Assembly: GCF_035083965.1 (NCBI RefSeq)
Contig: NC_089724.1
Coordinates: 9,728,910 to 9,792,909, forward strand
DNA length: 64,000 nt
Direction: 5' to 3'
Origin: Branchiostoma lanceolatum
Taxonomy: Eukaryota > Chordata > Leptocardii > Amphioxiformes > Branchiostomatidae
Positions 10,801 to 56,800 of the stretch are shown piece by piece. The position numbers were made by a program, and so were the translations under genes. The notes under the pieces are model-generated. The model saw only the letters and a program-made list of their open reading frames with translations, made no database searches and was not told the origin of the DNA. Position 1 is the first letter of the stretch. Every line of letters starts with the position of its first letter.

Positions 10801-13800
10801 TATGAAATATCTGACCATTTTAGACAATGGAGTACATAATAATGGTATATGGGCTATTTTGCAATTGCCATTGTGCCCCTCTTTTTTCTGCAATAGCCTC
10901 TAGATCACATTCATCGGGCATCATAATTCTGGTATCACAAAGCAAAAATGGCACAGTCACTGTGCCAGTGTGAGTTTGAGAGACTTTAGAATTTTGCTGT
11001 CGAATAGCTCAGCTAATATCTTCTTTAACGTTCCCCATTTTGTACGCATAATGGCTTGAAAGGAAAGATGGAGTCTTTAGTATTCTCAGTAAATCCTTGC
11101 AACAGCTGTCAGTTCTGAATCAGATTATCCCTATTCTTATTCTTATCGGCTAATGTCTTCCTGTGGTGTTTAGTACATACCCATGTAAACCAGTCTCTAT
11201 CTATGCTACACCTAAATAAGGCCGGTTTGGTTGCCCCGGATGAGACAGAAATCTGTTTCACATATAAAGAAGGAAAACCTATTTTTGTGGGAAACAATAT
11301 GGTAAGTAGGTTTTATATACTTTTAAATGAAAGGACCTAAATGTGGATGTTCATAACGTATTGCAAAGAGCTGTGGAAAAATGAAGCTAGCTGGGCCTAA
11401 TGGCCTACTAGTCCACCTTGTTACTGTTAGTTTCTCCACATGCCTGTCTTTCTCTAATAGTAATATCTAAGCTTATGAAGAAAGGCAAAATCATTTATCA
11501 AGCTCCTGTGTATCATGTACAGACTGATATTATGAAAAATACGGGTTTCGACATGTAACCTCCATAACATTAATCTGCCGGGTTACAAAAATCTGCCACT
11601 TTGAAAAACAGTAGGTTTGAGAGATCTCTAGTGCAGCACCTCAGGTATGCACAGTTTAGATAATTTTTCATACAAAAGTGCATTGTACTTGGGGACGTTG
11701 GATTGGAGATCTGTTTGGGTGTATCTTTACAGGTTGGCAGAATTACCATATGTACCCTTGTGGAATTATGTTAGTACATGTAGATGTTACAGTAGTTGCC
11801 AACTTCAATTTTGTCAATTTGTGGGTTCTACATACCTGTAATAAGCTATTATAAGTTGTGTCCAAACTTGTAGATCCTAGATAAAGTACATGTAAATATA
11901 GACAAAGAAGAACCAGATACCAGGAACATTGGATACCTATAAATGGGTACATATCTCCCATGACTATCTCATTGACAAAGGGACTTTTGGGAATAGTCTA
12001 TCAGCCCAGCAGTGACCCCAAGTGACCTCTAACAGCAGCATACAAGTGATTCCAATTTCACTACTTGTAGGGACTGTCCAGTAATAGCTTGGAGGAGGAA
12101 AGATGGTTAACATTAGAACACCTACGATGAAAATTTTGATTATTGTTTGACATGTATACGGTTAGATGTAAAAGCTATGACAGACAAAACTTCATAACCT
12201 ACTTCTATTGCCATGTATTTTCTTTGACCAGAAAGTCTGGTACATGTACCACTACATTGTAAGTTTTGAGAATAACAAGTTGGCAGTTGTGTGATGCAGC
12301 AGTGTGGTAACAAGAAGCCAAGGGTCAAGTACCGTATTGTTGACAAACACCGTACCTGTCACTGTTATGTGGTCAGGCTGTGCAGACTTTAGTAGGAATC
12401 TAGGATACTGTAAATGCATTTAAGTTCGTGTGTTTTTATTTCGCAGTTGAAACAATAGTAGCGCTACAGTCATAGGTGGGCAACAAGTTTCGCTGAAAGT
12501 TCACCGCGAAAACTTCGAACGTAAAACCACTGCAAACACTTCAGCATTTACAGTATCACTGCATGTATTGTTAGTTGACCAAAATTGTTATTTTTAGCTG
12601 TGCAATGTGTGTATGCTGCCTGAACAATGGGAAATAACCAGCAAATCACCATGGATTTCATGCTCAATTTATCGTGAACAAATTACACACATGCTAGAGC
12701 AGTTACTTCTTTCAGAGGTTTTATTGTCCCTTTTTTAAGTTGCACAAAGCACACAAATAGGTATTCAAGTTGGAGCAAATTCTGTTACAAGTGGAGATAG
12801 GCAGGACTGTATATATAATATTCTTTGAAATCTGTTTACTCATTGTTTTCTCTAGTATGAATTATGACCCACCACAGTCTGAGCCAACTGCTTGCAGAGC
12901 TGGTATGCTACACCAGTTGGGTTTCTTTTGTGGCCAATTGCAATATAGATACAGATATACATATTTAGAGTTAGACCAACAATTGTGCAGAGATAACATA
13001 CATGTAGCCTGAACTACAATTTTGTTTATACATGACTAAGATGAGATAATGCTAGCAGAACCCGAACTTTGTTGTGCTTTTTTTTCCTGAGTTCAATTGG
13101 CATTCCTTATGGTGGCAGAACATCTATGTAAATCCTATCAGCTTCATGCAGAGGTCTGACACTGGTGTAGTTTTCCATCCAAAGCTTCCTACTGTGCCTG
13201 TCAAGGCAGATAACATGACCCAAATGTCAATCAGCTTGGCAAGCCAAGATAGCCAAGGGGGGAACCGTTTCATCTTTGGAAGAACGCAGAACGCTTCTGG
13301 GCTCAAGCCTGCAGCTTCTATGGATCTGTGAAGGCAGTTGCCTGCATGCTTTGTATTCTGTTAAGTTGTATCTCTGTGACTGATGTTTTTTGCAGGTTGC
13401 CACATTTGTTTTCTGATATCAGACTCTTACCACTTACAAAGATGTTTTCTGTGACTTCTAACACTCCACATCGCTTCTGTCTCGGATCTGTGAAGGCAGT
13501 TGGCAGCAATTGCTTTCGTATCTGTAGTTGTATCTCTGTGACTGATGCTTTTTGCTGGTTCCCACAATTGTTTTGTGATATTAAACTCTTACCACTTACA
13601 AAGATGTTTTTGCGACTTCTAACGCTTCACATCGCTTCTGTCTCCTCCAGGCCTCGGATGCTGCAGTATGTAGTTGTATCTCAGTGACTGATGTTTTTGC
13701 AGGTTCCCACAATTGTTTTCTGATATCAGACTCTTACCACTTACAAAGATGTTTTCTCCGACTTCTAACGCTTCACATCGCTTCTGTCTCCTCCAGGCCT

Positions 13801-16800
13801 CGGACGCTGCAGTGCACAACGGCAAGATGGAACCTGCCGAGGAGAACCCAGACTCCTCCGACATCACGGAATCCACGCGACCAATCTTCATCATGGACGA
13901 GCCGATCGAGGAGCCGTCCGCCACGTGCTGCGGGTGCGGGGAGGAGAACAAGGAGCGCGGGAACTGGACGTGCCAGTGCGAGATGATCCTGACCTCCATC
14001 GGCTGGGCGGCCGGGCTGGGACAGCTGTGGAGGTTTCCCATGCTGTGCTTCAGGCACGGAGGTCAGAAGTACTTCTGATTGTTGGCATGGCAGACAACAT
14101 AACAGAAAACAATAATCGGGAAACAGTCTTTAGGTATAAACCATTTTTGGACAGTAAGTGCAAGCTGCATTAGACTGGGCTGTAAGATTTGATCAACTAC
14201 TAACTCACACTGGGTTGGACGGGTTCGTTAAGGTGCTCAAAGTGTGGCTCTCCTCAAACACCAGAACTTCAGTTTTACATCCTATCCGATAGAATGTTGC
14301 AATCCTCCGCTAGATATTCATTATAACTAGAGCACAACATACTGGGGATTTGAACCCAGAAACCTTTAGACTCGAAGTCAATGACCCTAACTACCAGACC
14401 ATTTGCCTCCAACAAGTATTATAATTGTGTGCTTTTGGGCAGAGCCTAAATTATTCAATTATATGCACAGCACGAACTCTGACCTGTGCTCATAGTCACG
14501 TGATTCCGTCAGCCTAGTGCCTTGCAACGGCAGAACGTTCCGTGCTCTCTAGAGAAAAAATTCCTAGCCCACTGATTCCTCTCTAGTTATTGAGTGAGAG
14601 TGCAGATAATTATATTCCGAACCACCTGAGCTCTGCCACTGTTGGAGTCCATATCTGAGGGCACGAACCTCTACCAAAGAAGCATAGTTGCATTGAGATG
14701 CATATGATGTGCTTTTTAAAAGGTGCTAGGGGGATCTATGATTAATTTTCCTTATCTTAAGGTAGAGTTACCTACAAGGAAAAAATCTGGAAAATCCATA
14801 GCGTGTAGCTTGTGGAATTATCAGACTAGTGAAAACATAACAGTAAGGTATGTATTGGTACAAGAAGGAATGTTTGTCTTGGATGTGTAGATCCAATAGT
14901 GCACATTCATGGCATAGCTAGGAAGGTTGACAAGACTCCATGCTTTGTATTGCTTACTTTGCAGGCAAAGAAGTAGTATATAATGTGACATGTGGTGATT
15001 GTTTTCCAGGAGGGTTTCTTGCAGTGTGGCTGGGTATGCACTTCACCTTGGGTTTCCCTCTGGTTCTGTTGGAGATGACGCTGGGACAGTTCACCAGTCA
15101 GGGTCCACCTCGGGCATGGAGGGGAGTCCCACTCCTTCACGGTACACCAACTTCTTAACCTTTAGCACTCCGAAGTAGCTGTTTGGCACCCAATTCCCTC
15201 TTGGTTACAGAGTTAGGCAGCAGGGAGAAGGTTAATCTCACTTAGCCTGGGTGTCATCTGATTACTACTGGGGCGCCTATGCTCGCTGGGGCGCCTATGC
15301 TCGCTTCCCAATAGGAGCCCCGGTAGTAATTGGATGGTGCCCACTAACCCAGTCTAAGTCTTACTATGTACTATTTGCCAATAAGTTATGATCATTCTTA
15401 GGTGTTTTGTAGTATAGTCTTGCACTTGTAATTTTAAAGCCTTCAGTTTAGTGGCAACTTCACTCATAGTGGAGCTGATAGAAAAGTCAAAATCTTAAAC
15501 TGATTGAGTTATCAAGGTTATGTCTTCTTCTACTTCTTCTTTATCTTCTTAGCCTTCTTATACTGCTGTTTTGAAAACTCTTCAGTATCACTGTGTATTT
15601 ACTGTAATTTTGAACACTGTTGTTTCTACCGTTACAGGTGTTGGGTTTGCAGTTGTTGTTATGATGTCCATCCTAGCGATTTACCAAAACACCAGCATGG
15701 CGTATATCCTACACTACTTGTTTGTGGGCAGTCTGCGAGATCTTCCGAACATAATGCGTTGTGACAACTACTGGAATACTGTGGAGTGCAATGGTGAATA
15801 CAACTCAATGGGTATAGACTTAGCCTGATTCAAACCCTTCACATGTTGAAACTATGATGATCATGATGACAACTTCTACAGCTGTATCCTACCAGGAGTA
15901 ATTTGAGCTATCAATCTTGGCATAGCCTGTCATAAAAGAGTCACAACTTTTGCCAGCTCTGCAACCATTTTCAGACCTTTCCTCTACTGTTTGTCATTCT
16001 CTGTGAAGATATCTTGATTTGTTGACGTAATTTTCAGATTATGGTCTCACCAACACGACGCGCTGTCGTGAAGTGGCCGGCTTCATGTGGTACGATGACA
16101 GCACAGGATACTGGCAAAACTACACACAGTGTCCAACAAAGTCCGCCCCTGAAGAGTATTGGAGGTACGATAAAGATCTCTTTCATTGTTTATTCTAAGT
16201 GGAGTCAGTCAAAAGTATGTCTTTTCAAGTTTTTCCCAGTTCAGTTTTCATTTCAAACAGACTGCCACAACTGTATTTATGAACAAGTGCATGATGATTT
16301 AGTTAAAGATACAAGTGATTGGAGATAAAAGAGACGAAACAACATTGACATTGACCCCCTCTCTTCACTTCCCCAGGAATTATTTGCTGCAGATATCAGA
16401 TGGTCTGGAGAACATGGGGGCGGTACAGCCAGGTCTGGCTGGTTTTCTGTTCCTGTCCTGGCTGATGGTGTTCCTGGTGCTGGCTTTTGGTATCAAGTCT
16501 GCTGGAAAGGTGCGTAGAACAGACCTTGCGAATCTTTAGGGTGGTCCTTTTAGTTAACTGAGTACTGATTTCCAAGGGTGGCCTTAGAAAATCATATCAA
16601 ATCAGGCTACAAACAAGGATAACTTACAAAAACCTCACAGATTGTAACTAGGTTCATAATATTCACTTGAGTCCTTGACAAAGGTTCTAACTATAGAGGA
16701 AAAGATTATCAGTAAGGCTACAAAAGTCTCTTTTGTACAGAGTGTAGTTCCAGTACTCTAGACACTACACATGTAGTCATGAGTCTCCAAATGTTTCCAA

Positions 16801-19800
16801 TCTTGTACAAAGAATGGCATATATACACATTCATGTTGTTTCATGGTTTAGGTTGCATACCTGACCACAACCATCCCCTTTGTGCTTCTGGTGTTCCTGT
16901 TGTTTCGAGCCATGTCCTTGGATGGGGCAGTGGATGGACTGATATATCACGTCACTCCGTACCCGTATGCAGGCTTTGATGTAAGTGTGCGTGCAACACA
17001 TGAACAGTTCACTTTTCATTTGGGGCGATTGGTTACAATTTTACTTGGTGACTATATACATTCAGTTTTATAGCTCTAACAATACATATATAATTGTTCG
17101 ATAACTGAATACAAGTCACTTTTCAATGTCACTGAGCAACTACAATGTCACTGAGCAACTACAGACCATCTGTCGGCTAATTAGGAGTATACTTCTGTAA
17201 CATTTATTATTGTGGAGACATACCATCCTGTATTTTTTTGTCTTTCTGGCTTACCTTATTTTCTATACAACAGCATAAGGCCACACCAATTTAATTTCTT
17301 GGTTAATGAATTGTTATTTTCCAAAAAAAGAGAAAATTTTAGAAAAAGAAAATTCATGAAAACAGAAGGCTAATGGCCAGTCTTCTGTTTTCATGATATT
17401 TTTTTCTAAAATGTTTTTTTTTTTTAAACAAAAATCCGTTAACCAAGAAATTAAATTGGTGTGGCCTAAGATAATATTTTATGTTAAAATGTGACGTCCA
17501 GTGTGTCACACGATGAGAAAAAGTGTAATCAAATTTTCCTTCTGCCACCCCTTCCCTCCCCCAGCGGACAGACCTGTGGGTCGATGCTATGATGCAGGTG
17601 ATCTACTCCCTGGGTGTGGGGTGTGGTTGTTACACCACGCTCAGCTCCTACAACAGATTCCACAACAACACAGTCAGGTCAGGGAGGGACATCATATTTA
17701 CTTTTCATGCCTCATATTCCTCTGTATGAATGCAGGAAAGGTTGTCAGAACATCCAGTACCTTGGAGAGTGCTTCTTTGGCCACTTTGTCCGCAACTCAA
17801 GAGTGTATTGAATTTGCAAATTCATTGTTCCTTGTCAAAACTTTGTAAAATGGCACCAGAAACAAATGCGATGGCCTTGATTGACAGTATTTTGGATGAA
17901 ACTTTGACTAGCACAGATGTTACACCAGTGGTGTTAGCATGCTTTTTGCAGAGTCTTGTTTTGTAGAAACTAGAATGAAAACATGTTTAGTGGACTAATT
18001 TTTTTTAATCTGTCATTCTCAAAACACAAAATATTGATTTCTCCTGTCCAGAGACGCAGTGCTGGTTGTGTTTGCCAACATTTTGGTGGGTATGCTGTGT
18101 CTGTGCATGTCTGCAGGCTTTCTGGGCTTCCTCGGCAAACAGTTGAATGAGCCCATAGAAAATCTAGTGTCTTCAGGTAACATGGGACTTCTCTTTATTT
18201 CTTGACATTTCATATATTAAGTTTCTCGGAACCCAAATCTGAATTGATTTTTTTGTACCTAACATTACATGTCATTGAATGCAAGAAATATTGGAAGTAT
18301 GATTAGAAATTACTTGAAAATCCTTCACAGCTGTTGTTGTTGATTGTTTTGAAATCAGATACACTTATTGGGTCTTGGGCAAAATCAAATCACTTTGTGT
18401 ACTCTGCTTTCGTGCCACTTCTCAGGCTGACCCAGCTTTTTCCTGGTGTTTCAAATATGGTGAATGGAGGTGCTCACTTCATAGATGGGGATAAAAATTT
18501 ATTTTCCAGTAGTTCTATCCTCCAGCTTTTCACAGCATTGATCGGTTTGTAAAGCCATGTTGATTTGATTATATGGATGACATCCCCAAGGGGCCCCAAA
18601 ATTGATGTGAATGTGCGAATAAAAGAATGTCCAAAAAAAGAAAAGTTGTCTTTATTATGAAATCTACATGATCAGGAAGAATAAACAAAACTTTAACACA
18701 CAAAATTATTATATACCGAAATGAAGTTCTCATTTTTGTTTTTTCAAAACTTTGAATACTTCTTTGACTTTAATTTGGAATTGACTTTGGCTTTCTACGA
18801 CATTAGTATTCGTTTTTTCGAAATAATTTTTTCCGCAACTTACAGCATGCATTTTCTCATTTCACAGCTGCTCTTTCGATTTACAGTATGGCCAAAGACT
18901 TTTTTTTGTGTAGAAACGGACAAAAATTAATGCACGCGTGGATGTCATCCATATAGTGAAATCAACATGGCCTAAGAAAAGAATGTGCAGCGACTCCTGC
19001 CGTCCTCTCTAGTCTTTGCTTCACGTTCTCATTTAAATGTTCACATTATGTAATCTCCATTACCGTTAAAAGTAAGACGTTCCTGACATTAAGATATGCC
19101 ACATATAAGGTACGCAACTGCCGTTTTTAAAAGCTAGAAAAGTTTTAAGTCATCATAAAAACTACAGTTTGACATCTTATATCTGGCATATCTTTATGCC
19201 AGGAACGTATTATTTCAATTGGTAACGGAGATTACAAAATGTGTACATTTAAATGAGAACGAGCGTCACCTCCTGCTATCTTGCAGGTCCCCACCTGGTG
19301 TTTGTTGTGTTCCCCCGTGTACTGGGGATGCTGCCTGCCTCCTACCTGTGGTCCATCCTGTTCTACCTGACTCTGCTGCTTCTCGCCTTCAGCTGCCAGG
19401 TAATGATATCACAACAGGTGTCATGACTGTCAATTTTAAAGACAAAGGCAACACCTTCCTCATCCTCTTCCAGCAGGCCCGACTCGCTACTGGTGACATT
19501 ACTGACAGTTGCTTATGAATAATTAGCCTTATTTGGCAGAAACAGCCGTTATTTTGTTCTGAACCCAAAGTAGCGATGTAAGATGTAACCTGATTGGCTG
19601 ATAGCGTCCCAGCGACCTTGGCGGATTTCTACAAAACGAGCTTGTGGCTATCCTCTGATTCGGGCTGAAAGCTGTTTGGTGGTGATGATGTCACCAGTAG
19701 CCAAAATCAAGGTCCAGAAGAGCAGGGCCAATGTGGGAGGTAATGTACCGAGCGAGTCGGGCCTGCTGAAGGAGGATGCACTTTCCTCAGAGCGCAACGC

Positions 19801-22800
19801 CAACATCCTGTACATCTCTGACAGCCCTGCTGCTAAGCTGAGAGAAGACTGATTGAAAAAAATTCAACACAGTTTTCTTAAACTTTATTTTTTCTTCTCT
19901 ACAGACATTTCAACAGATTGTCTAGATCTGCTGACTTCATCAGTGCAAAGTATTTAACTTGTCCTATAGTGACATAATTTTGTCACAATAGGACAAGTTT
20001 ACTTTGCACTGAAATATTTGTAGAGAAGAAAAATAAGGTTGCGTACAAGAAAACTATGTTGAATTGTTCCACCTTGATGAAACTTTTTACAGATAATTGA
20101 AGAAATGTTATGATTTGGCTGTCCTGATTTGTTTGTAACAAGAAGCTTTGATGGGATTTATTTTCTAAAAACACATTCTCTTATCCTGCAGTTTGTAATC
20201 GTGGAGACCATTGTGACGTCTCTACTGGACCTGTTCCCGTCAGGCAACAACGGCACAGGTGGGCTGTGTAACCGGCGCATGCTGCTCCATCTACTGCTCA
20301 CCTTCACCAGCTGCATCCTCTTCTTCCTGCTGGGACTGCCTCTGGTCGCACAGGTCAGTAACCTCTGGGTCAGTGACCCTTCAGGAGTATGCCAACATTC
20401 TACACAACAGTGTTTTATGTGAAACATTGTATTACCACCTTACACCTTGACACACAATGGCTAAACCCCAGGTATTAGATTTTATGCTCCAATGGACTCA
20501 ATAGTTTATCAATTATCTAGTAGCTCAATCAAGCTGTCCTAGTGTCTTGTATGATGAAACATGCACTTCAGTAATGCTAAATTGGCTAAGGCTAGCTTTA
20601 AACATGACATGACTAAATGCTTATCAGTAAAACACTTAGTAACACAAGCAATAAAAAGTGTTATCAGCATTAGAAGACAGCATCATCAGCTAACCATCCA
20701 ATAACAATCATATATAATTACATTGGGCTGACTATGTCGTAAATGCCTCATTTGAGGGCATTTTAAGACTGTCCATCTCTATTGTGTTCTCCAGGGTGGC
20801 ATGTACCTGTATAACCTGCTGGATAATTTTGTGGCCTCTGGGTTCGTCATCCTCCCCATCCTCCTCCTGAAGAGCATCGGCATCTCATGGTTCTACGGTA
20901 AGTGCCGAAAAATCTTCTTTCATCTGCTTTACTTTGTTGACAGTTGAGGAAATGTTGAACTCGTTGAGATGACGGCTCAAAATACTGGGTGCATGTGCAC
21001 TTTTGTGCACCCAAGATTGGAGCTGTGCACCTTATTTTTGACTGGGGGCACCAGTACACCTAGATATTAGGCTATAGGGTAAAGGAACATATACTAGTGT
21101 ACACTAATACACAAAATATTCTTTAAGTTCAAGTATCAGAAAAAAAGCCATAAAACCTTTGTTGTACTTTGTTGTACTACTTCTTTAGAAGTTTGAAGTC
21201 AGCTATAAGATTACAGTAGGGTTGGTAATTATGCTTTGCTGACATTCTACTTTATTTCATGTTATGCACCTAAAATTCTTTCTCAGCACCTAGATTTTGA
21301 ATTTGGAGCCCTGTGATAAATGATGGATTTGGACGTGGATTTCTGTGTTTCAGCGATCAATCGGTGGGGTCGTGACCTGAGCCACATGCTGCAGTATTCG
21401 TGCTGTTACTGCTGTAATAAGTTAGTGACGGTGGTGTGTCAGGTGTGCTGGTGTCTACCCATCCCCCTGATGCTCGTGGTGAGTGTCAGCACTGATCGGT
21501 GGATCTATTTCCTAGTTTCTGTTTTTGATCTATTAAGGTTTTGAACTGTCATGTTTAGAATTAACCTTTAGCACTCTGAAGTAGCCATTTGGCACCCAAT
21601 TTCCTAGATCCTATTGGTTACAGAGTAAGGCGGCAGGGAGAAGGTTAAGCTAGATTCAGTGTTAATATCAAAATCGAATGGTCAAGATAGTGAACTTTCT
21701 CTACAAGTCTTCTCTATTACACTGTACCTCCAAACTGTTGATTATTGTTTATAGAGATTTCAGGAAATATCTACATACATGTATGGACACTGAAGCATAC
21801 AAGTGAAGCAAACAATGCAAAAGGAGAAACCATATTTGTACATAATACTTATTTTGGAATTAGCCAATGTGTTGCTGGCTGAATGCATAGCCTATGGATA
21901 TTAACTATGCAGTAAATTACATAATGGCCAATTATGATTAACTCAAACAATCAGATCTTCAACTTCTAGACAGAAAAGTCAATACATGTAGATACCAATA
22001 ATACCAGATGACTTTTCAACTTCTTCCAATATCATCATTTTTTTCTTACAGGGTTCTCTTTTATGGACGTCCCTACTGTGGCCCAATGAGGTGTATTTTG
22101 AGAACTACAAGTACTCAGAGGGACATGTTATAATGGGATGGCTCATTGTCGGGGTAGAGCTGGCACCCATTCCTATTGTTGCCATCATCAACTGCTGTCT
22201 GGCATGTTGTGTAAGTATTGTGATACTTTTTCTGAGGAATATTTCATTGGAGAAACTTCAAACACACTAATATACACACTATCCACAAATAGATGTGTCC
22301 TCGGTGCTGAACAACATCTACACACAAACAGACCTGTCCTTGGTGCTGAACACCATCCACACAAATGCACACAAACAGAAGCTAAGCACAATCCATACAC
22401 ACACACAAACAGACTTGTCCTTGGTGCTGTACACCATCCAGACACACGCACATACACACATTGGAGCTGAACCTTTTGGTAAAATCCAGGCGGCAGATTT
22501 TGTTTTACTGGCCGAAAAGAGCTACATTTGTAGAGGAATGTGCCCAGTAGAAAGAACCTGCAATGCTGCCGCCCATACATGTAGATGTATCTATCCTAAG
22601 CAGTGGAAGATAAACTCGTCATTGAGCTTGACTGATCTGACATCACTTCCACTTTATTGCAGAGATTAGCCTATGTCTAATCTTTCATTACAGGTCAAAG
22701 GTCGCACCATCATCAGACCCCCTGCGGACTGGGGACCGTACCTTCAGCAGCACCACAGAGGGAAGAGGCGTGGCAAGGTGCTGAGTCAGCCCCACATCCC

Positions 22801-25254: not shown

Positions 25255-25870
25255 AAGGTCAACAGACCTGTCCTTTGTGGTGTACACTATCTATGCTCAG
25301 ATCCAAACAGATCTGTCCTCGGTGCTGAACACACCTTCTATACACACAAACCTGTACTTGGTGCTGAACATCCACACACACAAACAAGCTTGCAGACCTA
25401 TCCTTGGCACTGAATATCATTCACACAAAGACAAATGGACCTGTCCTTGTTGCTGAACATCACGCACACACAAGCAGACCTATCATTGGCGCTGAATATC
25501 ATTCACACAAAGACAAATGGACCTGTCCTTGAAGCTGAACACGCACACACAAGCAGACCTATCCTTGGCGCTGAATATCATTGACACAAAGACAAGCGGA
25601 TCTGTCCTTGGTGCTGAACATCACGCACGCACAGGCACACCTATCCTTGGTGCTGAACACCATTCACTCAAAGATAACGGACTTGTCCTTGTTGTTGAAC
25701 ATCACGCACACAAGCAGACCTATCCTTGGCGCTGAACATCATACACACAAAGACAAACGGACCTGTCCTTGTTGCTGAACATCACGCACACAAGCAGACC
25801 TATCCTTGGTACTGAACACCATTCACACAAAGACAAACGGACCTATCCTTGGTGCTGAACACCAGCCACA
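25255..25870. repeat. minisatellite, GTCCTTGGTGCTGAACA-type unit (upstream of AHCY)
   Basis: About fifteen copies of a 40-bp unit, organised partly as an 80-bp dimer: GACCTATCC recurs at 25394, 25477, 25556, 25716 and 25796. Linkers are CACACAAAGACAAA- and CACGCACACAAGCA-like. The unit is the one in SLC6 intron 14. Overlapping ORFs are by-products. Confidence 0.85.
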
Positions 25871-26108
25871 CAAACATACATCCTATTGCTGAAGCTGTCA
25901 TGAAAATGTTGTATCATAATAGTGGGGATCCTTTTTTTACATACGTTTTAGCGTTGTTATCAAAAGAATGCAGTCATAAATTTGTAATCCAGTTCATATC
26001 TGATAAGCACGAGGGCGCTGTTGCACAACCCAACGGACAGGTGAGGCAAGTTCCAAGTTACTTCACCTTTGACCTGCCAAGATAGCCGATTCCAGAAGAA
26101 GGCTCATC

Positions 26109-45000: not shown

Positions 45001-48000
45001 ATTTCATAATACTAAAACAGCTGGCTGGTCAGATATATGATAAAAGTCTCTAAAAATGATAGAATTGTTTGTTTTTTCTAACACATGAATGTGAAAGTGA
45101 TGATCAATTATGATCTTTAAAAATATTCTGGTGTGTGTTTTTAAGGTTTTAAAAAGCACAGTATCATTGAATTATCTGCAAGTGAAAAACATAATCTGAC
45201 AGGAACGCTTGAAGAGAAAGAGTGGGCTTAGTCCTGGCGGTCAAAATGACGATGATGTAAAGCACCCTTAGCTGGTATCCAGTCCTCTTCAGCCTTAGTC
45301 TACTCCCCAACAGTCACTCATGGACATAGGGGAGAACCTACCATTTTGAGAGCTGTTCATGACTCCAAATACCAGACTAAAAGTAGTCACCATCCACCAC
45401 CTACATCCAACATGTGTCCTCTACTAGTAGTTGTATTTTTCACAGGGTACATGACAGTGCATATTTCACCAGAAGACATGCAATGTAAAGACACCCATAA
45501 AGACACTTAAAGGTTAAGGTGGGGCTTGGGGTCAGCCCAGGTCATGAAAGACCCTCCTTGCACCAAAGGTCAACAATCACCCCCTCTGGATTGATTCCCA
45601 GGCCAAAGTGTCAACTGCTATCAACAGCAGGGTGTGCCATGGAAAACCCATTACACGCCACCATCACCCCCTGATTATATACATTAATCATGACATTTTG
45701 TATGAATGGTGGAGGGAACCAGGGCTGACACCAGGCCAGATAATTTCATCTGAAAGTGTGTGGCCTGGTCTTTGGACATTGGTCATGCCATTATATATAC
45801 ATCAGGGACAAATTCTATTTTTGAATACCATCCTTGCCCTATACCAACAAGCATGTGACACTCATAAAACTGGGAGGTTTAAAGTCATAACATTACCGTA
45901 TATATATATATAAACATGGATGGTCTTGTCAAAGTATTACAATTGTAAATGCAGAAATGTTCCCAGTGGTATTATGTTGTTCCATTGTGTGACTGTACTA
46001 GTAGTGGTACTTTTTTCAAACGTGGCTCAAAACCAAGGACACTCCATTTTCTCCCTACTGCGAAATTAAATCCCGGCGAACATTTCTGCATTTACAGTAA
46101 TGTGGACAAAGTATTTGTGACACCTGTGGACAACTATTTTTTCTCAGTATCCACATGATCGTTTTAAGAAGGTATAACATAAAACAAGTAAAATTTCTGA
46201 AATGTCTAGCCAATAAGAATATGGAAATCTATTTGACATGCCGCTGATTGACCTTAATTGAAGTGGATCCATACTTTTATTGATGCCTGTCCCACTTCTG
46301 CAGTAATCATCCTAGAGAAATTGGCTCAGGCTTTAAGCCTGATATGTAACAATGTCACCTTACCTGGCAAGGCTAACAGTACACAGTGCTTTTCCAATTA
46401 ACACCCTAAAAAAACAGTCCCAAAAGAGATGTGACTATATGAAAAAAAAAAAGAATACATTTAGCAGGTTTCTTGCGCGTGAAACAAGAAAAATAGAAAT
46501 TTCAATAATTATTCATGGGGGACATGGACCTTGATGTGCCTTGGCAATAACATTTAATGATACCTGAAACATCTGCCAACACGCCTAAGAATTGCTATCA
46601 ATCACGAAGATACACTGTAACCATTGTGTTCCCGTGGGATATCTGAGGCACGTACCACACGTACATGTGAAGATATGCCAAGATATGTATTACCTCAAAG
46701 CCCTAAAGTAATGATGAGTTCACCTGGTACATCTTACAACTTTTCCACTAGCGTTTATCTAGACGTAATCTGAAATTATCAAGAGTCCATTCTATTTGAA
46801 GATAACTAAGTTAACGTTATCTAGTTATAGCACTGTGTCAGCTGGGTTTCCCCATGATCAAATTTCATTCCAAAATAGATGGGGAGCAAGTACATGTATA
46901 TGGTGGCACTGACAATGTGTTGAGCTTTAATTTGGGTTAATAACATAAATCTAAATGCCAGATTTCAAATGGCAGTTTTCAAATCTCTGTTTGGCTGTTA
47001 TTTCTGAGTTGAAGTGAGTTGCTGTACTGCAAGCAGTTAGCGATATGGATTCATAAGGCCAAGGTTTGTTTGAATCCTGCTCCAGCACCGTGTAAGGGGT
47101 TTCATTATATAATGCTACTAGAAGTACTAGTCCTCTTGGATGAGAATTTAAATCCATGTGGGATTACCAGGCATCAAACCTCGGCAGGTAAAAGAACCCA
47201 ACACACTTCTCGAGAAGAGTAGGGTTGACCCGGTATATGATTGGCTGAAAATGTGAGCCTTAGTAAAGTCACATTGTATACGTACTACTAGTACTTAAAA
47301 ATGCATCACGCTTCACCTCTGTTGAAGATGACTGAGTAGAATGACACTCTGCAACTTTTACCAAAAAAATTTGGACCGTTTTTTCTGGCGTTAACGTTGA
47401 ATTTAGTCTCTTCTGAGGCTGTTTTCACCATATACCAAACTTTGCCATTAATTTATTAAAGTTTAAACAGTACAGTAACATCTGATGACTGGTAAATTTG
47501 CATGCCTGCACACTGTAGGACAGATCTCTAATTCAATTTGCTGTCGACTTCAATTTCCAAATGCATACTTTTGAACTAGGCTTGCATGTACAACTTTCCA
47601 GTCACTTAATTATATAATTAGATTTGCTGGGTAAAGCTTATCTCTTTTGAATATTTAAAGCATTCTGGTACTGTAGGTCATTGACTTGAAAAATTTCAAA
47701 CTACTGTACATATTTTCGTATTTATTCATTTCATTTCGTGTTTCATTTGAAAGCATAGCCATGCATTGCCAATGATACTAATTTCCCCAAATCAATGACA
47801 GTATTGAGATTGTTAATTTGAAAAATAATACTTCCTAGATCTAAGTATTGTATGATGGAAAAGTATCTCCTTGCAAGCATGATAAACATGCTCAGCATGC
47901 AAGCACATGCTCAGTCATATGACCTACAATCACATGGTATGTTAGACTACTAGTAATTATTCGATCCAGGAAGTATTCCTATAGCCAAGGAGGCATCAAA

Positions 48001-50024
48001 TACTGGCATTGGAATATTGCCAGTACTGTGATGAACTTCCTCTGGTGATCTAGCACTGAGAATGACATAAGTAAGGTCACGTTGATGAAGGTTATACATC
48101 CAGGTAATAAGATACGCCAAAAATAATCACTCAAGCAACTGGATAAGATTTTGAGGATAAGTAAGGTCAGTCATGACCTTGTACTGTTGTCTTTTTTATA
48201 TTCCACTCATCTTGCTTTGTAGTCTTCATTCCTACTACAATGGTTTATGGTTTGAATGAACCCTCCTATACAAATGCTGGACATCTAGGAAGGGATCTGA
48301 AAGGTCCATATACAACCAGAAGAGGGTCGGGATCTGTGAAATGTGATATTTCTGATACTAGCTTGGATGCCAGACCCCCAATCTCTAAAATATCTATCGT
48401 GTGGGATATATCATATGATAGATATTTTAGAGATTGGGGGTCTGGCATCCAGGCTATATTTCTAAGGCTTTCATTTCAAATACACTATCTCTCAATTTTC
48501 CTGTGCAAGGTACTAGACTGTACTTTTTCTTTATCTCTAGATCTGTTCACTTCTCTCATTTATCATATTTCATGTACTATTGGTATCCCACTGATGATCA
48601 TGTCCATTGAGTCATGAGTTGAATTCTGTACCTCAAAGTAAAGTTACTGCCACTGATTTACTGGCATCACATGGTATCAATGAATGACCAGTCTCAAAGC
48701 AAAAAAGAGAGACACCACCCTACTTTCATTTGTCTCAATGATATAGATCTGATTTTATGGATAAATTTCTCTCTTTGTTATTGATATTTGGATAGTCTGG
48801 CATAGGTGATCATGATTTCTGGGCAGTCAGACATATCCTGAAGCAATACCAGGAAATAATCAGATGTGCTTTACGTACCGCACCTTGACGTTAGCTCGGT
48901 GTTGCCTAGCAACAGAGCCCAGGGACGTCACTTTAACGTCAGAACGACACTAGCCCGCCGCCTACAAACCAATATCTAATCATTTCTTCCACCTGCGGTT
49001 GTCAGCGGAGATGAGAAACTGCCTGGGGTACAACCACCGTGGCATGAAATCTCCAAATTGCGCGAAAACATTCCACATCGGTGCTTTAGAACACGGAAAA
49101 ATCTTAAGACTGACAAATATTGACACTTAATCTGTCGTAATTAGATTATTTCACAACAGGATATATCTGTTTGCTCTCACTCTGTGACAGGCCATCCCAC
49201 TTTTTTTGAGAATTGACATATCACTCCCTTGACGCCTCAGTAAAGAGCAATTTTCTTGCAAATTGTAAAAGATGGCTTACAGTATTAACAGAGCCAGCAG
49301 TGCTAAACATATCATTACAGATTCATGATAAGGTTGTATCCAAAACAAAAGATGGGGATGAAATACATGTATTACAGCAAGTTGAATGATGGTTATCGTT
49401 AGGAAAAGCTTATTCTCCTCCAAAATACTGTCCCTTTGTGTTACGCCATGGCCATAGCCGGCCTGCCACCATCAAAACATTCCGTGACGTCAAATACCTG
49501 ATATGGAAAGAATGGAGTAAAAACGGATCGATTGAAAGAAGGGGAGAAACATAAACCGCACAGATGCGGTCAAAAGCAACGGAATCTTTCAGCTTTAACG
49601 TTTTTGTTGTGATCTGAAAAGGAGATTTTAATTAACATGTGAATCGTTTAGGAAATTGCTAGGATCTTTTGCGGTAATGATATTTAGACCGTGACGATTT
49701 GGTAACAGATACCACCGTGTTAGATTACGTTGAAAGATTTGTCTCAGTACTTACGGAATCAGGCTCGTCTTTGGCATCTCCTGCTGGATTTCCTTGATCT
49801 TGGGGCGTTGTCGGTGCCTCGGGATCACGATCGGGATCCTTACCGTCCGTCTCGGCCCCTCCCCCCTCGTCTACCGCGGACGACACGGCGGCCTCCCCGC
49901 CGTTCTGTCCCCCCGCCCCGCCGGCTCCCTCCCCTTCCCCGGTAGACTTCAGCGGGGTGTTCGGCGGCGTGTAGTGCCTCATGTCCTGGACATCTTGCGG
50001 CGTTTTCCCCGGTCCCGAAGCCAT
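33045..50024 (-). CDS. TMEM117: TMEM117 orthologue, multi-pass membrane protein, 7 exons
   Basis: Predicted 615 aa (human about 514). Exons in transcript order: 50024-49755, 39705-39533, 38278-38118, 37880-37648, 34828-34571, 34160-34037, 33673-33045; phases join. Diagnostic stretches: KDFRYYFQHPYARLFVAYLV, FAEDPVSH, ANVIVVGN, RLLRLKMF, GTWMGDFVTAWMVTDMMLQD, LNRGFLPTNELSRAILAS, DLLIVMQDW and LDLNMWKNQIFYKP. Eight hydrophobic segments can be counted. The NRT, NHT and NLT sites lie between the last two. Human TMEM117 has been linked to ER-stress signalling; biochemical activity is unknown. Odd: exon 1 and the start of exon 2 add about 100 acidic, Gly/Pro-rich residues before the conserved core. 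A Met at exon 2 (AMAAEE) could start a shorter form. Intron 4 holds a LINE and a donor-copy array; intron 1 is 10 kb. Confidence 0.93.
33916..34013. mobile_element. short repeat, GCCTGACTAAATC...TAACACAGGCTA family (copy 1)
   Basis: GCTTGCCTGACTAAATC at one end and GATTGTATAACACAGGCTA at the other. The same pair of ends recurs at 55291-55364. TMEM117 intron 6. Confidence 0.5.
34829..37647 (-). other. TMEM117 intron 4
   Basis: 2.8 kb intron. It holds, in plus order, the LINE 3' tail (35098-35140), the LINE RT frame (35476-37062) and the exon-4-donor tandem array (about 37085-37672). Almost nothing else is left, so the intron has apparently grown by these two processes. Confidence 0.8.
35098..37080 (-). 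mobile_element. 5'-truncated CR1/L2-like non-LTR retrotransposon with open RT frame
   Basis: A 528-codon frame at 35476-37062 encodes reverse transcriptase: KTTKSAGPDGIDGRLLKEY, motif A DFSKAFDLVDH, motif B GLAQGTKLGPIVF, motif C AFVDDLNLVE with both catalytic Asp, then LEYAAPVWHGG and IQRRATRIILG typical of CR1/L2/Jockey-type C-termini. The endonuclease domain is absent, indicating 5' truncation. The 3' end on the minus strand is GTGAAATAAACCATTATT followed by (ATT)n, a short-repeat tail rather than poly(A). Same strand as TMEM117. The frame has no stop or shift, so insertion may be recent. Clade is by eye. Confidence 0.88.
37085..37672 (-). repeat. tandem array spanning the TMEM117 exon 4 donor
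   Basis: Units of about 90-120 bp. The plus-strand landmark AGTACCATCCATG occurs at 37219, 37323, 37432, 37521 and, as the real exon 4 end, at 37643. On the minus strand each unit reads GTCACyGCATGGATG|GTACT, i.e. the last codons of exon 4 plus donor, followed by intron sequence with TGTATACAGTAAGATACAGA-like text. Retention past the real donor gives Met-Val-Leu-Gly then TAG. The LINE fragment abuts the array. Confidence 0.85.
39796..42251. mobile_element. 2.46-kb inverted-terminal-repeat transposon with TA flanks
   Basis: Left end CTCTCACCTCTCAAATA is exactly inverted at the right end (TATTTGAGAGGTGAGAG is the mirrored strand), each flanked by TA (39794-39795, 42252-42253). Subterminal AAGTACCCCCTGGAATA and AAGTACCCCCCGGA units repeat at 39811-39900, and a perfect palindrome AAACGTACCGGTACGTTT lies near the right end. 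No transposase is recognisable. The hAT-like element at 41137-41957 is inserted inside it. Confidence 0.75.
41137..41957. mobile_element. 821-bp non-autonomous hAT-like element with 8-bp target duplication
   Basis: Begins TAGTGGTGCGGATCGG and ends with the inverse TCGATCCGCACCACTA. The flanks are identical 8-mers GTCATAGC (41129-41136 and 41958-41965). Subterminal GGACCGGTTCCGGAC-type blocks are shared with the 3384-3792 element. An 8-bp duplication and TAGTG ends fit hAT. No transposase frame. Nested in the TA-flanked element. Confidence 0.88.
45942..46098. mobile_element. foldback MITE, ACTGTAAATGC family (copy 3)
   Basis: ATTGTAAATGCAGAAATGTT at the left is mirrored by AACATTTCTGCATTTACAGT at the right. 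TMEM117 intron 1. Confidence 0.7.
46975..47240 (+). repeat. probable tRNA-derived SINE
   Basis: A tRNA-like head (GCAAGCAGTTAGCGATATGG and GGTTTGTTTGAATCC) is followed by GGCAGGTAAAAGAACCCAAC and GAGAAGAGTAGGGTTGACCC, a tail I associate with abundant short retroposons of marine invertebrates. Ends uncertain. Confidence 0.45.
48082..48152 (+). mobile_element. solo arm of the 54266-type foldback element
   Basis: GTTGATGAAGGTTATACATC, AAGATACGCCAAAAATAATC and ACTCAAGCAACTGGATAAG match the left part of the element at 54235-54412, but no inverse follows. Confidence 0.5.
48359..48456. mobile_element. palindromic MITE with perfect 35-bp arms
   Basis: The arm at 48364-48398 (starts TGGATGCCAGACCCCCAATC) is exactly inverted at 48417-48451, with an 18-base loop. 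The outer TAGC/GGCTA ends place it in the TAGCCTGG family. TMEM117 intron 1. Confidence 0.8.
48890..48950. promoter_or_regulatory. RFX-type X-box with flanking CRE half-sites
   Basis: GTTGCCTAGCAAC (48901-48913) is a perfect palindromic X-box, the RFX binding motif. Around it lie TTGACGTTAG, GGACGTCACT and TAACGTCAGA, CRE-like sites. It is 1.1 kb inside TMEM117 intron 1 and could act as an intronic enhancer or an alternative promoter for either neighbouring gene. Confidence 0.45.
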
Positions 50025-50847
50025 GGCAGCTGCGTTTCCTTGCCGTTTCTAAACCTACATTTCACGTAAAGTACCGTGAAACGCCCACGTACAACGGTTT
50101 ATACACGCCTTTCCAAAGACCAATCTGCCGCCACGGTATCTCAACTATCTTCTGGTGATCGTCAAGGACTTCCTGTTTGGACCACAAGGGGTCATCCAAA
50201 AACAAACTGAGGGATGGTGACGGAAGGGAATTTCTAGTTTAAATATGTCTATCTATCTGGACTTTCAAATGAAATAATGAAATGTATTAACAGTATTACA
50301 TTCATTTCGTTTAAAACAAAGTTAACTACCCAACAGACTGCTTCGATCCACACAGTTTGGTCTTATTGATCGGTCCCCACTTTAGAGCGCATCATAACAA
50401 GGTAAAGTATTTGTTATCATTATTTTTATCTATACAATAAAACAATATTTCAACATAGAAATAACAGAGTAGTAGTAAATATACAAAATTAGATTTTATA
50501 AAATACTGGATTGATGTTTGAAGTTGTTACGAACAGTTAATTGATTTCTTCGTCTGAATGTGCGTTTGCCTGCTCACCATTGATAAAGTTGGCATGATTG
50601 GAGAGCAAGTTTATTCTTCGAAAGGAAGAAAATAATCTCTGAAAATCGTATTCTGACATTTAGAAATTTTCCATCACGAAATAGCAATGCATTATCATAC
50701 AAACAGCTGGAAAGAAAGTATCTTATCTCTATAAAGAAAATTACAGAACTCAACCTAAAAGTTCTCAATGGTATCTCCCAACTAAGATGGCTGCCAGAGG
50801 AAGTAATATTTTGTTTCGAAGATTTCAGATCATGTAAAGTTTACACC
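50025..50847. promoter_or_regulatory. head-to-head promoter region of TMEM117 and TM7SF3
   Basis: 823 bp separate the two divergent start codons. The TMEM117 side is CG-rich and continues into its exon 1. An ETS-like ACTTCCTG lies at 50168-50175. On the TM7SF3 side, AAGATGGCTGCC (50784-50795) is a classic YY1 motif of the kind found at or just after start sites, 53 bases before the ATG. No TATA box is seen near either gene. The centre (50220-50770) is AT-rich with nothing specific. Confidence 0.6.
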
Positions 50848-53800
50848 ATGGCAGGTTATCCTCGCAAGATGAGTTGGTGGTGTCTCGTGGCTGTTTTCTT
50901 TTCAACCCTGATGACGCTAGATGCACGAAATCGAACCGGTAAATGATTTATTAACTGTGCAAATGTCTTGACTTTTGTTGCTGCCTCAAACTCAAAGACA
51001 TTTCCTAAATGATATCCTTGCTATCTCAGTATCTGTGCACATCACTGTTGACATCTTAACACGATAACAAAATTTACCTCCACAGTCTATATGTTTTCAA
51101 TTCAAAACTTTGTGTTTCATTAACAGCAAAGGATGAACAGCATCATTTGAATGATATGTAGAAAATCTTGATAGTCGAACATTAATATGCATATTTCAAA
51201 GTTATGAGGAGCATGCAAATGACATCAGTGTTTTCAGCCTAGTTTTACGAATTCAGATTCCCAAATCTAGTGTAGTGCGTATAGGAATGTACGCCAACTT
51301 ATCTACTAGCAAGGTAGAGCATTGCCGGCCTTCCTGAATTTACCCTTAATTGCCTAAGCTCTCTTAAATCTACCGTTAAGCATTGGCCTGTACCCCCCAT
51401 GCAGATCATCATTGTTGCACATGATAATGTATGCTCAATTAAAGCAGCACTTATCAGCAAATAACCTTATTCCACATTTTCATCTTTTATTTCAGAAATA
51501 TCGCTATTCAACAACACATGGACCAACTTTACCCTGGGATCAGGCGACACATTAGATGTCACCCTGTCCAACATCAGTGTAAACAGCAGCTTTGCAATGT
51601 TGCATGTTCACGCTATACACACGTCCGTGGTGGGGTCACTGGCCCCGGACTACCACACCTACACAAGTGTCAACAGCTCCGATGTGGGCCTGCTGACCCT
51701 GCTGGAGAAAGGTCAGAGTTCGGTGACCTGGTTTGTCAATTCTACGCGTAATGAGACGGATGGTACCAAGGTCTGGATGATGGCGCTGGAATATAACGCT
51801 TCAGGTAATTACCGACATAAGAAATGGAGGTATAGTTTTTGGCCTGTGTGTGTGTGTGTGTGTACGTTGGTCCATGTGTTGTTGAATAGCGATATTTCTG
51901 AAATAAAAGATGAAAATGTGGAATAAGGTTATTTGCTGATAAGTGCTGCTTTAACTGAGCATACATTATCATGTGCAACAATGATGATCTGCATGGGGGG
52001 TACTGGCAATACTTAATGGTAGATTTAAGAGAGCTTAGGCAGTTAAGCCAAGCTTAAGGGTAAATTCAGGAAGGCCGGCGAGTTGGTGGTGTCTCGTGGC
52101 TGTTTTCTTTTCAACCCTGATGACGCTAGATGCACAAAATCGAACCGGTAAATGATTTATTAACTGTGCAAATGTCTTGACTTTTGTTGCTGCCTCAAAC
52201 TCAAAGACATTTCCTAAATGATATGTGTGTGTGTATGTGTGTTTTTGTGATTTTGTAGTCAGCATAACTCAAGAACCTACATGTAGGCGTCTTAATGAAT
52301 TATGATGATATTTGGTGTTTCGATAGGTCTTGTTATTGATATCACTGCACAGTTACTGTGTTTGAGCATGACAAGTCCGCACTCATTTTTATAGCATGGT
52401 AATCAAAACTTTCTCAAATAACAAATGGAAATTTCATTTTTGTCTGACTACAAATATGATTATAAGTTGAAAAACATTAGTAAAGCTATTGGTGTTTTTC
52501 ATATCCTAATTTGTATATAAAAGATAAGCATGGGACCATCATAAATAAGGTAAACTTTCCATATGTCTGAAGAATCTATGAGCTTTGGAGGGCAATATCT
52601 ATTATGCCCCATGCTGTTAAACATACATAAAGTTTTTGTGTTGTTTTAGATCCCATTCCCGGCGCCTGTAACCAGGAATTCCCCCTCGAGAACGACCCAA
52701 ACATCCACGTCCACTACAACCTCTACGAGACCATCGTTCAGTTCCAGTTCTCCAACGTCGGTTTCCCGCGCCAGCCCAAGGGCATCCCGGAGTGCGACCA
52801 GGGCTCGTCGGGGGACCACCGGCTGAAGTACGATGTGTACCAGTACTACCTGCCCGAACACGACTTCAGCGAGGCCAGTCTGGTCCAGGGGCTGAAGAGG
52901 ATGACTCACCCGGCAGACATCATTGCTAATGGACATCTGGTGAGAGAGAAATCATTTAAATCATCAGCGCAATGCTTTTTTTTGAGTTTGTGATGGCTAA
53001 GCTTAAGGAAGAAAAGATTCTGACATATTTCCAAAATACAGCAGAATGTTTGTTTTGGAGTAAAAATGTATTTCAAAAAAAAAAATCATTGATCTCTTGC
53101 TCTTTTATATGGAGCAGCTTCATGCAACTAAAAGAACTATTAGTAAGTACATGTACATTTTTGCGGAACTGCCACAATTTGTTTTGTATCATACGGGAAG
53201 AAAACCCTCCTGTACCTTACACATGTAGTGACTTGTGTAAAAAAGATAAGTATGTGATACAATAAGCAAAACATTTTTGGAACATCTTTTGTTTGGTATA
53301 TCTTTTGTGTCATGTTTTCTTCTATTAGATAAGAACCCTGGACAGCAAGAAGAAACCAAACATGACCCTGGCTTCCTTCAAGGGACAGGGAGTCATCTAC
53401 AATGTGATTGTACGTGATCCCAAACTGAACACCTCAGCCTCCTACATTCCTGTACACACATACGCCTGCAGCTTTACTGATACCGTGGCTGGCTGTTTCG
53501 CAAGTAAGTACCAATATAGGATATTTATGGCGTTCATAACAGCGTCAAATGTTTCCTCCTCTACCCCTCCCCCTCCCTGAAAAATGTTCAAAGTTTGCTT
53601 TTCCTGAGGATTTATTCCCTTTCACATTTCAAATCTTTTGAAGGATAGGTGTATCATATTAAGAGAAAATACATAGAATGTACATGTATGTTTGACATTT
53701 TGCTAGCCTTCTGTAGCACCTCACAATTAGTTATGTTATTTTTACTATATTTCTTTAATAGATAATGATGTAGCAAAAGCCCTAAGTACCATCGCTGGTG

Positions 53801-56800
53801 TCATCGGTCTCTTCCTGTGCTTTACTGGACACAGATATTTTAAAACAGGTGGGATTTTTATTGCACCATTATATTGAAATGTACTAGTACATATCAGTGA
53901 AGGCTAACATAGTAATGAGTTCTGACTTTCAAATGCTTGACATAGTTAAGAAAGAATTCAAAAGCTGCATTGCTGTAAAATGCAGATGTGTTATAAACGA
54001 TAAAGACATTTTACGTATTACTGTATAAGAACCATCCTAACTTTTTTTCATGTCCTGCAGAGCTGTTTATATTTGGTTTCCTGGCAACCATGCTGATCAC
54101 CTTCATCCTCATCTCCATGTACTCAGATGAGAGTCATGCTGGTGAGTCAAGATTTCTCAAAAGATGTTTTGCTGCAGTCGTATAGATAATCCAAGTATTA
54201 TTTTGTAGAAATCTGTCATGTTTTATCATACGTTGATGAAAGTTAGACATCCAGGTAGTAAGATACGCCAAAAATAATTACTCAAGCAACTGGATAAAGT
54301 TTTGAAACAGTCAGACGTTTCAGTCAGTCACTGACGAAAGACAGTGGATGCTGTCTGAAACGTCTGACTGTTTCAAAACTTTATCCAGTTGCTTGAGTAA
54401 TTATTTTTGGCGCATGTTTTATCATGTTTGTATTTTGAGCCAATTTTTCTGCCAAAAATCACTACATCTTCTTGCACTTAAATTACACTTTGATTGTATT
54501 GCATGTCCAAAGACAACAGTTCAATGGCTCGACCCCTGTGCACATGCCAAAAACAGTCTACATCTCCCACATAGTCCGTAGTTGTTAATATTCCATGTTA
54601 TTTGCCGTACATTGTACCTGATGCAATTGTTGTGCAATAAACTTGACTTGACTTGACTTGACTTGACTTGACTATTTTGTGTTGCACTCTCTGGATCATG
54701 TCAAACATTGTGTCTGTTCCTCCTCCCCAGTTCGTGTAGGGATCTCCTGTATGGTAGGATCAGTAGGTGGGATCCTGTGGACCCTGTCAAACATTGTGTC
54801 TGTTCCTCCTCCCCAGTTTGTGTAGGGATCTCCTGTATGGTAGGATCAGTAGGTGGGATCCTGTGGACCCTGTCAAACATTGTGTCTGTTCCTCCTCCCC
54901 AGTTTGTGTAGGGATCTCCTGTATGGTAGGAGCAGTAGGTGGGATCCTGTGGACCCTGTCAAACATTGTGTCTGTTCTTCCCTCTCAGTTCGTGTAGGCA
55001 TCTCCTGTATGGTAGGGGCAGTAGGAGGGATCCTGTGGACCCTGTTCTGGTGGAGGTTTGGGCTGGCAGTTCTGAGTGTCCTGCTGGTCGGCCTGGTGCT
55101 TGGGTACATGTTTGCCTCCATCATCTTCTTCACACCATTTGGTAAGTCAACGATGGTTAGGAGTTTTCTATATTTCAACCTTTAGCACTTTGGCATTCAA
55201 TTCCCTATTGGTTACAGTGTTATATTAGGCAGCAGGGAGAAGGTTTACTAGTATATCAATAAGGAAAGTCTCTAGTGTGTTATGCAATTTGCCTGACTAA
55301 ATCTCGCTCCTAGCTAACCGGTCTATTAATCCCCGGCTACAAGAGATTGTGTAACACAGGCTAGTTAAACAACCCACTTTATAAACACCTGCTTACAATA
55401 GAGACTGAAATATGTGTTTTTGTATACACTTAATAAAATTTCATCTGTGTTGGTAGATAAGGACAAATACTTGTGTTGGAAATTGCAGTTTAGCTTTGAT
55501 ACCGAATGAAGTATATACAGTTTATATACTTTTTATCTATATAACATCTGGCCAATTTTAGATATCTTATTGCTACCACTGACAAATCATGTTTTGCACT
55601 ATTTCAGGGAACCTGAATGTGTGGCTGAATGACTTCAACTATGGCATGTCCTTTGCCTGTGGGATCATGATCATCCCTGTCTTTCTGCTGGCCTTTACAA
55701 AAACTGTGAGCAGAACTCTTCTAATCTTTTATGGACAAAGTTTAGCATCACCTGAAATCTTTCAAAGTTGTCAATGGAATACGTGTTGCCAAAAACATAA
55801 ATGACCAGCTCCTAGCTATGCTGTTAGGCAAAGTTCTGTTAAGATGTGCTGTAGAACTGTGAGGGGGTGGGGAGTTGATGGTACCAGAATGAAAAACAAG
55901 AGAGGCAGTAAAACGTATTGCCATGGCGATGATTGAGTGGCTATATGTAAGTGGTGTTTATGATTCACATTTTTAAGCTATGTTTTGACATATTGCAGCT
56001 AAGGTGCCAGGCCGCGTGTGAGTAACATTCCAGAAATACCAACCCGGTATAGCTGGGATATATGGAATTCTTTGGAACTAAATACATAATATACCTGTTT
56101 GGCGCGCTCCTGAAGCATCGCCAAAAACTGTGAATTACATAAAAGTAGTCAATGGGACATGTGTGATCAACAACATGCAGTGATAGATAAATGTCTAGTT
56201 AAGTTAGGGAGTAAACTTTACATGGTATGCATTTCTTCCTTGATGAAAACTCATCCGTAAGAGTTCTTAATTTTTACTGCATGTGATGACTATACCGGTA
56301 TCACCACCTTCTGCCATTGCCCTCTTATCGACATGTTTCCTTGTTTCCATCAGTTAAGTATCGTGTCCTGTTCCGTGATTGGCTCGTACGCAGTCATCCT
56401 GGCGCTGGATGCATACCTGTACACATGCCTGTCTTACATCGCTCTCAATCCTATCAAGAGGGCTGTGGCACAGGACTTCAGGGTAGCTGTCATCAGTGCA
56501 CCATTCCAGGTCAAAGGTATGGTGCAGTGCTGCCCCCTAGTGGCAAGTAAGGGTAGTGCAACCTTTGAATGAAAAGTACCACATACATCATTTAGCAAGA
56601 AATGTGTTGTAGTTGAGCCTCCCACACAAAGACTGCAGTGTTACATGTACACCATATTGATTCGATTATATAGATGACATCCTCCAGGAACCCCAAAACT
56701 GATGGGAGCAAAAATTTGGCCCCCAATAAAGTTACCCTCATTATGAAATCTAAGTGGTTAGGATGGTTGAACACATGACTATTGAAATGCACTGGTGTAC

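Follow-up and report, generated by a model that had tools for sequence, protein, structure and literature searches.

Tandem arrays spanning splice junctions in four neighboring genes of the amphioxus Branchiostoma lanceolatum, an instance of the known mirage minisatellites

Introduction

How does a gene keep its protein when the edge of one of its exons has been multiplied in tandem? The question is raised by a 64,000-nucleotide stretch of the Branchiostoma lanceolatum genome (NC_089724.1, positions 9,728,910 to 9,792,909 of the forward strand; hereafter the window, whose own numbering is used throughout), in which splice junctions of the genes for a GlyT1-like SLC6 transporter, AHCY, TMEM117 and TM7SF3 each lie inside a tandem array. 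Arrays of this kind have been described in amphioxus as mirage minisatellites, a name which PMC3087553 traces to the work of Canestro and colleagues (2002) on Adh3. According to PMC3087553, mirage units measure 10–72 bp in Adh3 and 150–160 bp in the globin genes, two further amphioxus loci are cited, haplotypes differ in length, and splicing is normal. PGBD5 and troponin C were added as mirage cases by PMC3902484. The four arrays of the window, noticed in a first-pass annotation, were confirmed as a correct observation of this known amphioxus phenomenon, and the interpretation which that annotation placed on them was partly supported overall.

Four splice junctions lie within tandem arrays

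Three of the four arrays were recovered by Tandem Repeats Finder (TRF) and the fourth, that of TMEM117, which is not among the TRF results, by self-comparison of the window; the unit sizes, exon numbers and coordinates given in the first-pass annotation proved right. The SLC6 array (13322–13813, plus strand) comprises three units of ~146–162 bp at the exon 2 acceptor (TRF periods 162 and 146), with the real acceptor at 13797 and a decoy acceptor at 13651. Seventeen exonic bases (13797–13813) fall within the repeated unit; the acceptor and these 17 bases are present in units two and three only, the first unit being without the exon part. The AHCY array (29498–29706, plus strand; TRF 29507–29702, 28 bp x 6.9) consists of seven copies of a 28-bp unit at the exon 7 acceptor, each with 18 exonic bases. 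Its real acceptor, at 29684, is accompanied by decoys at 29513, 29544, 29572, 29600, 29628 and 29656, of which those at 29544 and 29572 have lost their AG. At the TMEM117 exon 4 donor (37134–37672, minus strand), five degenerate copies of GGATGGTACT are spaced 122, 89, 109 and 104 bp apart, with the real donor at 37648 and decoy donors, all retaining GT, at 37526, 37437, 37328 and 37224. The TM7SF3 array (54689–55045, plus strand; TRF 54692–55045, 86 bp x 4.1) has four copies of an 86-bp unit at the exon 7 acceptor, 57 bases of which are exonic; the real acceptor is at 54989 and the decoys are at 54731, 54817 and 54903. The arrays thus carried by three acceptors and one donor have best ungapped self-match scores of 164, 146, 94 and 477, as compared to a best score of 34 in three Markov-simulated windows, and in all four the tandem unit spans the exon-intron boundary. 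The first-pass annotation had also taken the outermost copy for the real exon edge. This is true, but nearly by definition, since whichever copy runs on into the remainder of the exon counts as the real one.

The junctions themselves are supported by the gene models, whose construction relied on open reading frames together with splice signals. The SLC6 model (4825–22849, plus strand, 15 coding exons) is identical over 688/688 residues to the deposited B. lanceolatum protein P0241, which sets the exon 1/2 junction, exon 1 being 4825–4893. For AHCY (26844–30734, plus strand), coding exons 2–8 were modeled and the first coding exon was not located; the whole modeled length can be aligned to solved adenosylhomocysteinases, and this alignment sets the exon 6/7 junction. 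The TMEM117 model (33045–50024, minus strand, 7 coding exons) shares 96% identity with P0121, which comes from a B. floridae x B. japonicum record, and matches Pfam TMEM117; the exon 4/5 junction is set by both, P0121 having no insert there. The TM7SF3 model (50848–57264, plus strand, 10 coding exons) is identical to the deposited B. lanceolatum protein P0001 at 560/561 residues, which sets its exon 6/7 junction. The SLC6 and TM7SF3 matches also place the window in an amphioxus genome, and all four array boundaries are real splice junctions as judged by protein comparison rather than from cDNA. In total 36 donors and 36 acceptors were modeled in the window, all of them GT/AG, in keeping with the 36 introns counted in the first-pass annotation.

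Within the window, none of the four junction units had a match beyond its own locus, and none of the four arrays matched any family in an Rfam search. Related copies of these four arrays at unrelated places, as a transposable element family would leave, were thus not found in the window, and a shared mobile element behind the four junctions was rejected for want of any match beyond the units' own loci there. The earlier claim that the four units are unrelated in sequence is thereby supported as far as the window extends, and local duplication, rather than a common element, fits them. The resemblance to the amphioxus mirage type pointed out in the first-pass annotation also held, the structures agreeing with those published for Adh3, the globins and PGBD5.

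Other features adjoin the arrays. An (ACTTG)6.6 microsatellite at 54641–54673 precedes the TM7SF3 array by ~16 bases. Intron 4 of TMEM117 contains, on the minus strand at 35479–37074, an open reading frame of 532 codons for a reverse transcriptase (Pfam RVT_1) that ends ~60 bases from the TMEM117 array; an action of this retrotransposon on the array was considered and rejected, the relationship being one of adjacency only.

Decoy splice sites and the choice of the real site

Across the four arrays there are 14 decoys, of which 12 still possess AG or GT. In model splicing, the use of any one of them led to a premature stop (14/14), located 4 to 112 residues past the junction. The decoys were scored with a splice-site weight matrix built from the other 33 acceptors and 35 donors of the window, and all eight decoys of SLC6, TM7SF3 and TMEM117 scored within 0.6 bit of their own real site. 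For AHCY the scores were 8.3 at the real acceptor, 12.5 at the first decoy, which retains the original upstream pyrimidine stretch, and 7.3 to −6.4 at the five remaining decoys. Because decoys score nearly as high as the real site, or higher, local sequence alone does not explain site choice. The real site is probably selected by exon context, as the real copy alone is continuous with a complete exon that bears a second splice site at its far end. Reading of the AHCY array indicates that the working acceptor is preceded by exon-derived bases (TTGACCCTTACACCCTCC), which would now have to act as both branch region and pyrimidine tract. The deposited proteins carry no insert at the junctions, and the spliced models reproduce the known proteins. 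In TMEM117, the likeness between copies of the block comprising exon and donor was 0.74, versus a maximum of 0.69 and a mean of 0.47 for intronic windows of the same width.

Proposed origin of the arrays

These observations very probably reflect a history in which a stretch across each junction was duplicated and grew into an array, leaving intronic decoys among which exon context picks the real site. In a first step, a short stretch crossing the splice junction would have given rise to a head-to-tail duplicate through local misalignment in the course of replication or of the repair of a break. As the relationships among the copies suggest, the array would then have expanded and been partly homogenized via unequal exchange or slippage. 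The copy continuous with the exon would remain the functional site and the other copies would become intronic decoys, a step that is evident in the coding sequence and presumed for splicing; because the extra copies are intronic, the protein is unchanged, and selection would remove any duplication that changed the mRNA. Finally, since the local splice signals of the decoys are much like those of the real site, the real site would be chosen through its pairing with the other end of an exon of normal length.

The second step is illustrated by TM7SF3, in which the three intronic copies differ from each other at 1–2 of 86 bases and from the exon copy at 8–9 of 86. This pattern fits homogenization within the array with the edge excluded, as described for globin Gb6 in PMC3087553. 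The first step was addressed at the unit ends. Those of TM7SF3 form an imperfect direct repeat whose intronic member is TCTGGATCATGT and whose exonic member is TGTGGACCCTGT, with 9/12 positions identical (P 0.0005 with the breakpoints fixed, 0.015 if they may shift by up to 3 bases). The AHCY unit ends agree at 6/12 positions, including an exact CCCTC (P 0.07 at fixed breakpoints, 0.34 with ±3 bases), and those of SLC6 at 7/12 (P 0.02 and 0.34, respectively); the TMEM117 unit ends were judged by inspection only. Misalignment at short repeats is therefore supported for TM7SF3 and possible for the other arrays. Replication slippage, which the first-pass annotation had offered as one possible driver, or duplication mediated by short repeats accordingly stands as plausible, the TM7SF3 repeat speaking for it and the AHCY and SLC6 values not; microhomology as a general feature of the arrays was set aside as unsupported beyond TM7SF3.

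Several points weigh against the account of duplication, growth and exon-context choice. Once breakpoints may shift by 3 bases, similarity at the unit ends exceeds that of random pairs only in TM7SF3. Unchanged splicing at the four arrays is, at the RNA level, a prediction from the agreement of the proteins. And the nearly identical copies of TM7SF3 may be partly misassembled.

A composite copy and residue 355 in TM7SF3

Junction sequence in TM7SF3 has also been copied in a second fashion. Intron 2 contains a 359-bp composite copy (51866–52224, plus strand) in which two segments are joined directly to one another. The first of these, at 50871–51015 on the plus strand, covers the end of exon 1, the donor at 50938 and the start of intron 1, and was copied in direct orientation to 52080–52224 with 99.3% identity. 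The second, at 51324–51527 on the same strand, covers the end of intron 1, the exon 2 acceptor at 51496 and the first 32 bases of exon 2, and was copied in inverted orientation to 51866–52079 with 92% identity. GT-rich repeats flank the composite copy on both sides, and template switching during the repair of a break in a GT repeat would be its simplest reading; the copy suggests templated break repair. Local copying of junction sequence has therefore followed more than a single path. The inverted copy and its source are predicted to fold into a hairpin (51324–52079) of ~200 base pairs with the exon 2 acceptor within the stem, at −471.6 kcal/mol compared to a mean of −213.8 for 20 shuffles. 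If formed, such a hairpin could mask exon 2 from the splicing machinery or could be a target of RNA editing.

The sole difference between the TM7SF3 model and the deposited protein, A355S, falls within the 57 repeated bases of exon 7 (54989–55045). Serine is encoded at this position by intronic copies 1 and 2, and alanine by copies 3 and 4, the latter being the exon. An exchange between decoy and exon would give A355S, and a single mutation would do so equally; the position is variable across 120 aligned proteins. Copy number was seen in one haplotype.

Arrays at junctions: chance, hotspot or function

Whether junctions carry more arrays than chance would place there was assessed from an ungapped self-scan of the window (offsets 8–2000, low-complexity matches removed, clusters scoring at least 40 kept), BLAST self-comparison missing offsets below ~50 bases, such as a perfect 2 x 28 bp repeat which TRF reports at 9046. 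The scan yielded 11 local direct-repeat clusters, namely ten tandem arrays, among them the four that span junctions, and one dispersed duplication in TM7SF3. With each array collapsed to one unit, 4/10 at junctions compares with 0.83 expected (P 0.0035 when the set of junctions is shifted circularly, 0.0052 by random placement), and inclusion of the dispersed duplication gives 5/11 compared with 1.0 expected (P 0.0009 and 0.0014, respectively); the test was post hoc and covers one window. With arrays taken at their whole extents, the same 4/10 compares with a mean expectation of 2.03 (P 0.115). A further twelve TRF rows outside the list of ten arrays, consisting of short two-copy repeats and microsatellites, include no junction, and adding them would slightly raise the expected count. 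A per-position scan for local direct duplications scoring at least 36 gave a weak difference, with 4/72 junctions (5.6%) against 89/2500 random positions (3.6%). The excess at junctions over chance is thus dependent on the null model.

It is possible, if somewhat doubtful, that the arrays touch junctions by coincidence: amphioxus introns hold many minisatellites, and since a junction occurs about every 890 bases of the window, some arrays must meet one. The count at full extents and the modest outcome of the per-position scan are in line with this. Full extents, however, include copies added after the initial event, and the null based on one unit, which addresses initiation, seems to be the right one; the counts made under it argue against coincidence, as do the published mirage cases, which point toward an excess at junctions.

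That splice sites or their surroundings are themselves duplication hotspots, through breakage during transcription, R-loops or short stretches of similarity between pyrimidine tract and exon, is a rather unlikely alternative. It would account for the enrichment of unit-collapsed arrays and for the occurrence of arrays at acceptors and a donor alike in four genes, and the only two larger off-junction arrays (22284–22458 and 25304–25879) are related to one another, unlike the four junction arrays. The sample, however, is small and was examined post hoc, the test on whole extents gave no such signal (P 0.115), and chance together with selection against purely exonic duplications can yield part of the pattern.

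Improbable is a function for the decoys themselves, in tuning splicing or in supplying unproductive transcripts for nonsense-mediated decay. Mirages leave regular splicing undisturbed according to PMC3087553, and two of the six AHCY decoys have lost their AG. The retention of AG or GT in 12/14 decoys and the premature stop that follows each of the 14 would suit such a role, but stops are expected anyway in unconstrained sequence; likewise, the 0.74 likeness of the TMEM117 exon-plus-donor block exceeds that of any intronic window, but copying from a constrained exon would also keep the block alike.

Amphioxus is highly heterozygous. An assembly artefact or collapsed haplotypes are nonetheless very improbable, for although a globin mirage was misassembled in a draft (PMC3087553), the clear divergence among the AHCY and TMEM117 copies is not produced by assembly error, and the PGBD5 repeats were confirmed by new Illumina data (PMC3902484).

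The occurrence of arrays in four neighboring genes of one window suggests that mirages may be common in amphioxus, a claim of frequency that is suggested and interesting but unproven. The tally stands at 4/72 junctions with a mirage, or 6/72 once the two TM7SF3 junctions in the composite copy are added. A broader version, in which such arrays are a genome-wide and still active habit affecting a few per cent of junctions, templated break repair favors the surroundings of splice sites, and exchange between decoy and exon produces amino-acid variation, is speculative and unlikely as a whole.

Relation to known systems

Like the mirages of Adh3, BflGb6, BflGb9, troponin C and PGBD5, the four arrays have tandem units that cover both sides of a boundary, at acceptors or donors, and agree with them in unit lengths of 10 to ~160 bp, in copies that bear AG or GT and in a normal protein (PMC3087553, PMC3902484). 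They differ from the published cases in belonging to four new genes, all within one 64-kb window, in the very degenerate state of the TMEM117 array, and in the composite, partly inverted copy of TM7SF3. Internal tandem repeats of human segmental duplications likewise include minisatellites at exon-intron boundaries that alter intron structure (PMC2812944), but these concern recent paralogs with changed transcripts, whereas the four genes of the window keep their coding sequence. Intron gain by tandem duplication or repeat expansion, as in Cryptococcus CNN00420 and potato RdRp, similarly created extra possible sites through duplicated splice signals (PMC2395259, PMC4974935); there new introns arose, whereas in the window existing introns were merely lengthened. 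The accessible portion of PMC2206037 reports tandem repeats in amphioxus huntingtin scaffolds and mentions no repeats at junctions, and a literature search that covered few subscription papers found no genome-wide survey of mirages among the entries listed. What is new here is the four genes, their density, the analysis of decoys and the composite TM7SF3 copy, the phenomenon itself being already published.

Other features of the window

The two related off-junction arrays contain, as units, matches to Rfam mir-2060 above the gathering score (22283–22366 and 25788–25875, both on the minus strand), and what is catalogued as a miRNA family may be the unit of a minisatellite. A fifth gene, encoding a RING/B-box protein, enters the window at 61054. 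TMEM117 and TM7SF3 are arranged head to head (49755–50848), with 824 bases separating their start codons; the first coding exon of TMEM117 (49755–50024) lies ~10 kb away from the second. In AHCY, a perfect (TTG)15 at 27922–27972 reaches within 5 bases of the acceptor at 27972, for which it seems to serve as the pyrimidine-rich tract. Palindromic stretches of ~90–240 bases at 17278–17467, 19024–19261, 48359–48456, 54260–54418 and other positions are possibly small inverted-repeat elements.

Significance

Mirages offer a natural test of spliceosomal choice among several nearly equal sites, and they have been proposed as a source of raw material for new introns (PMC3087553). The presence of arrays at 4/72 modeled junctions suggests that a chromosome-level survey of the lancelet would be easy and informative. 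Such a survey would give the rate at which junctions are duplicated, an answer to whether they are hotspots, and examples of arrays caught in the course of changing gene structure.

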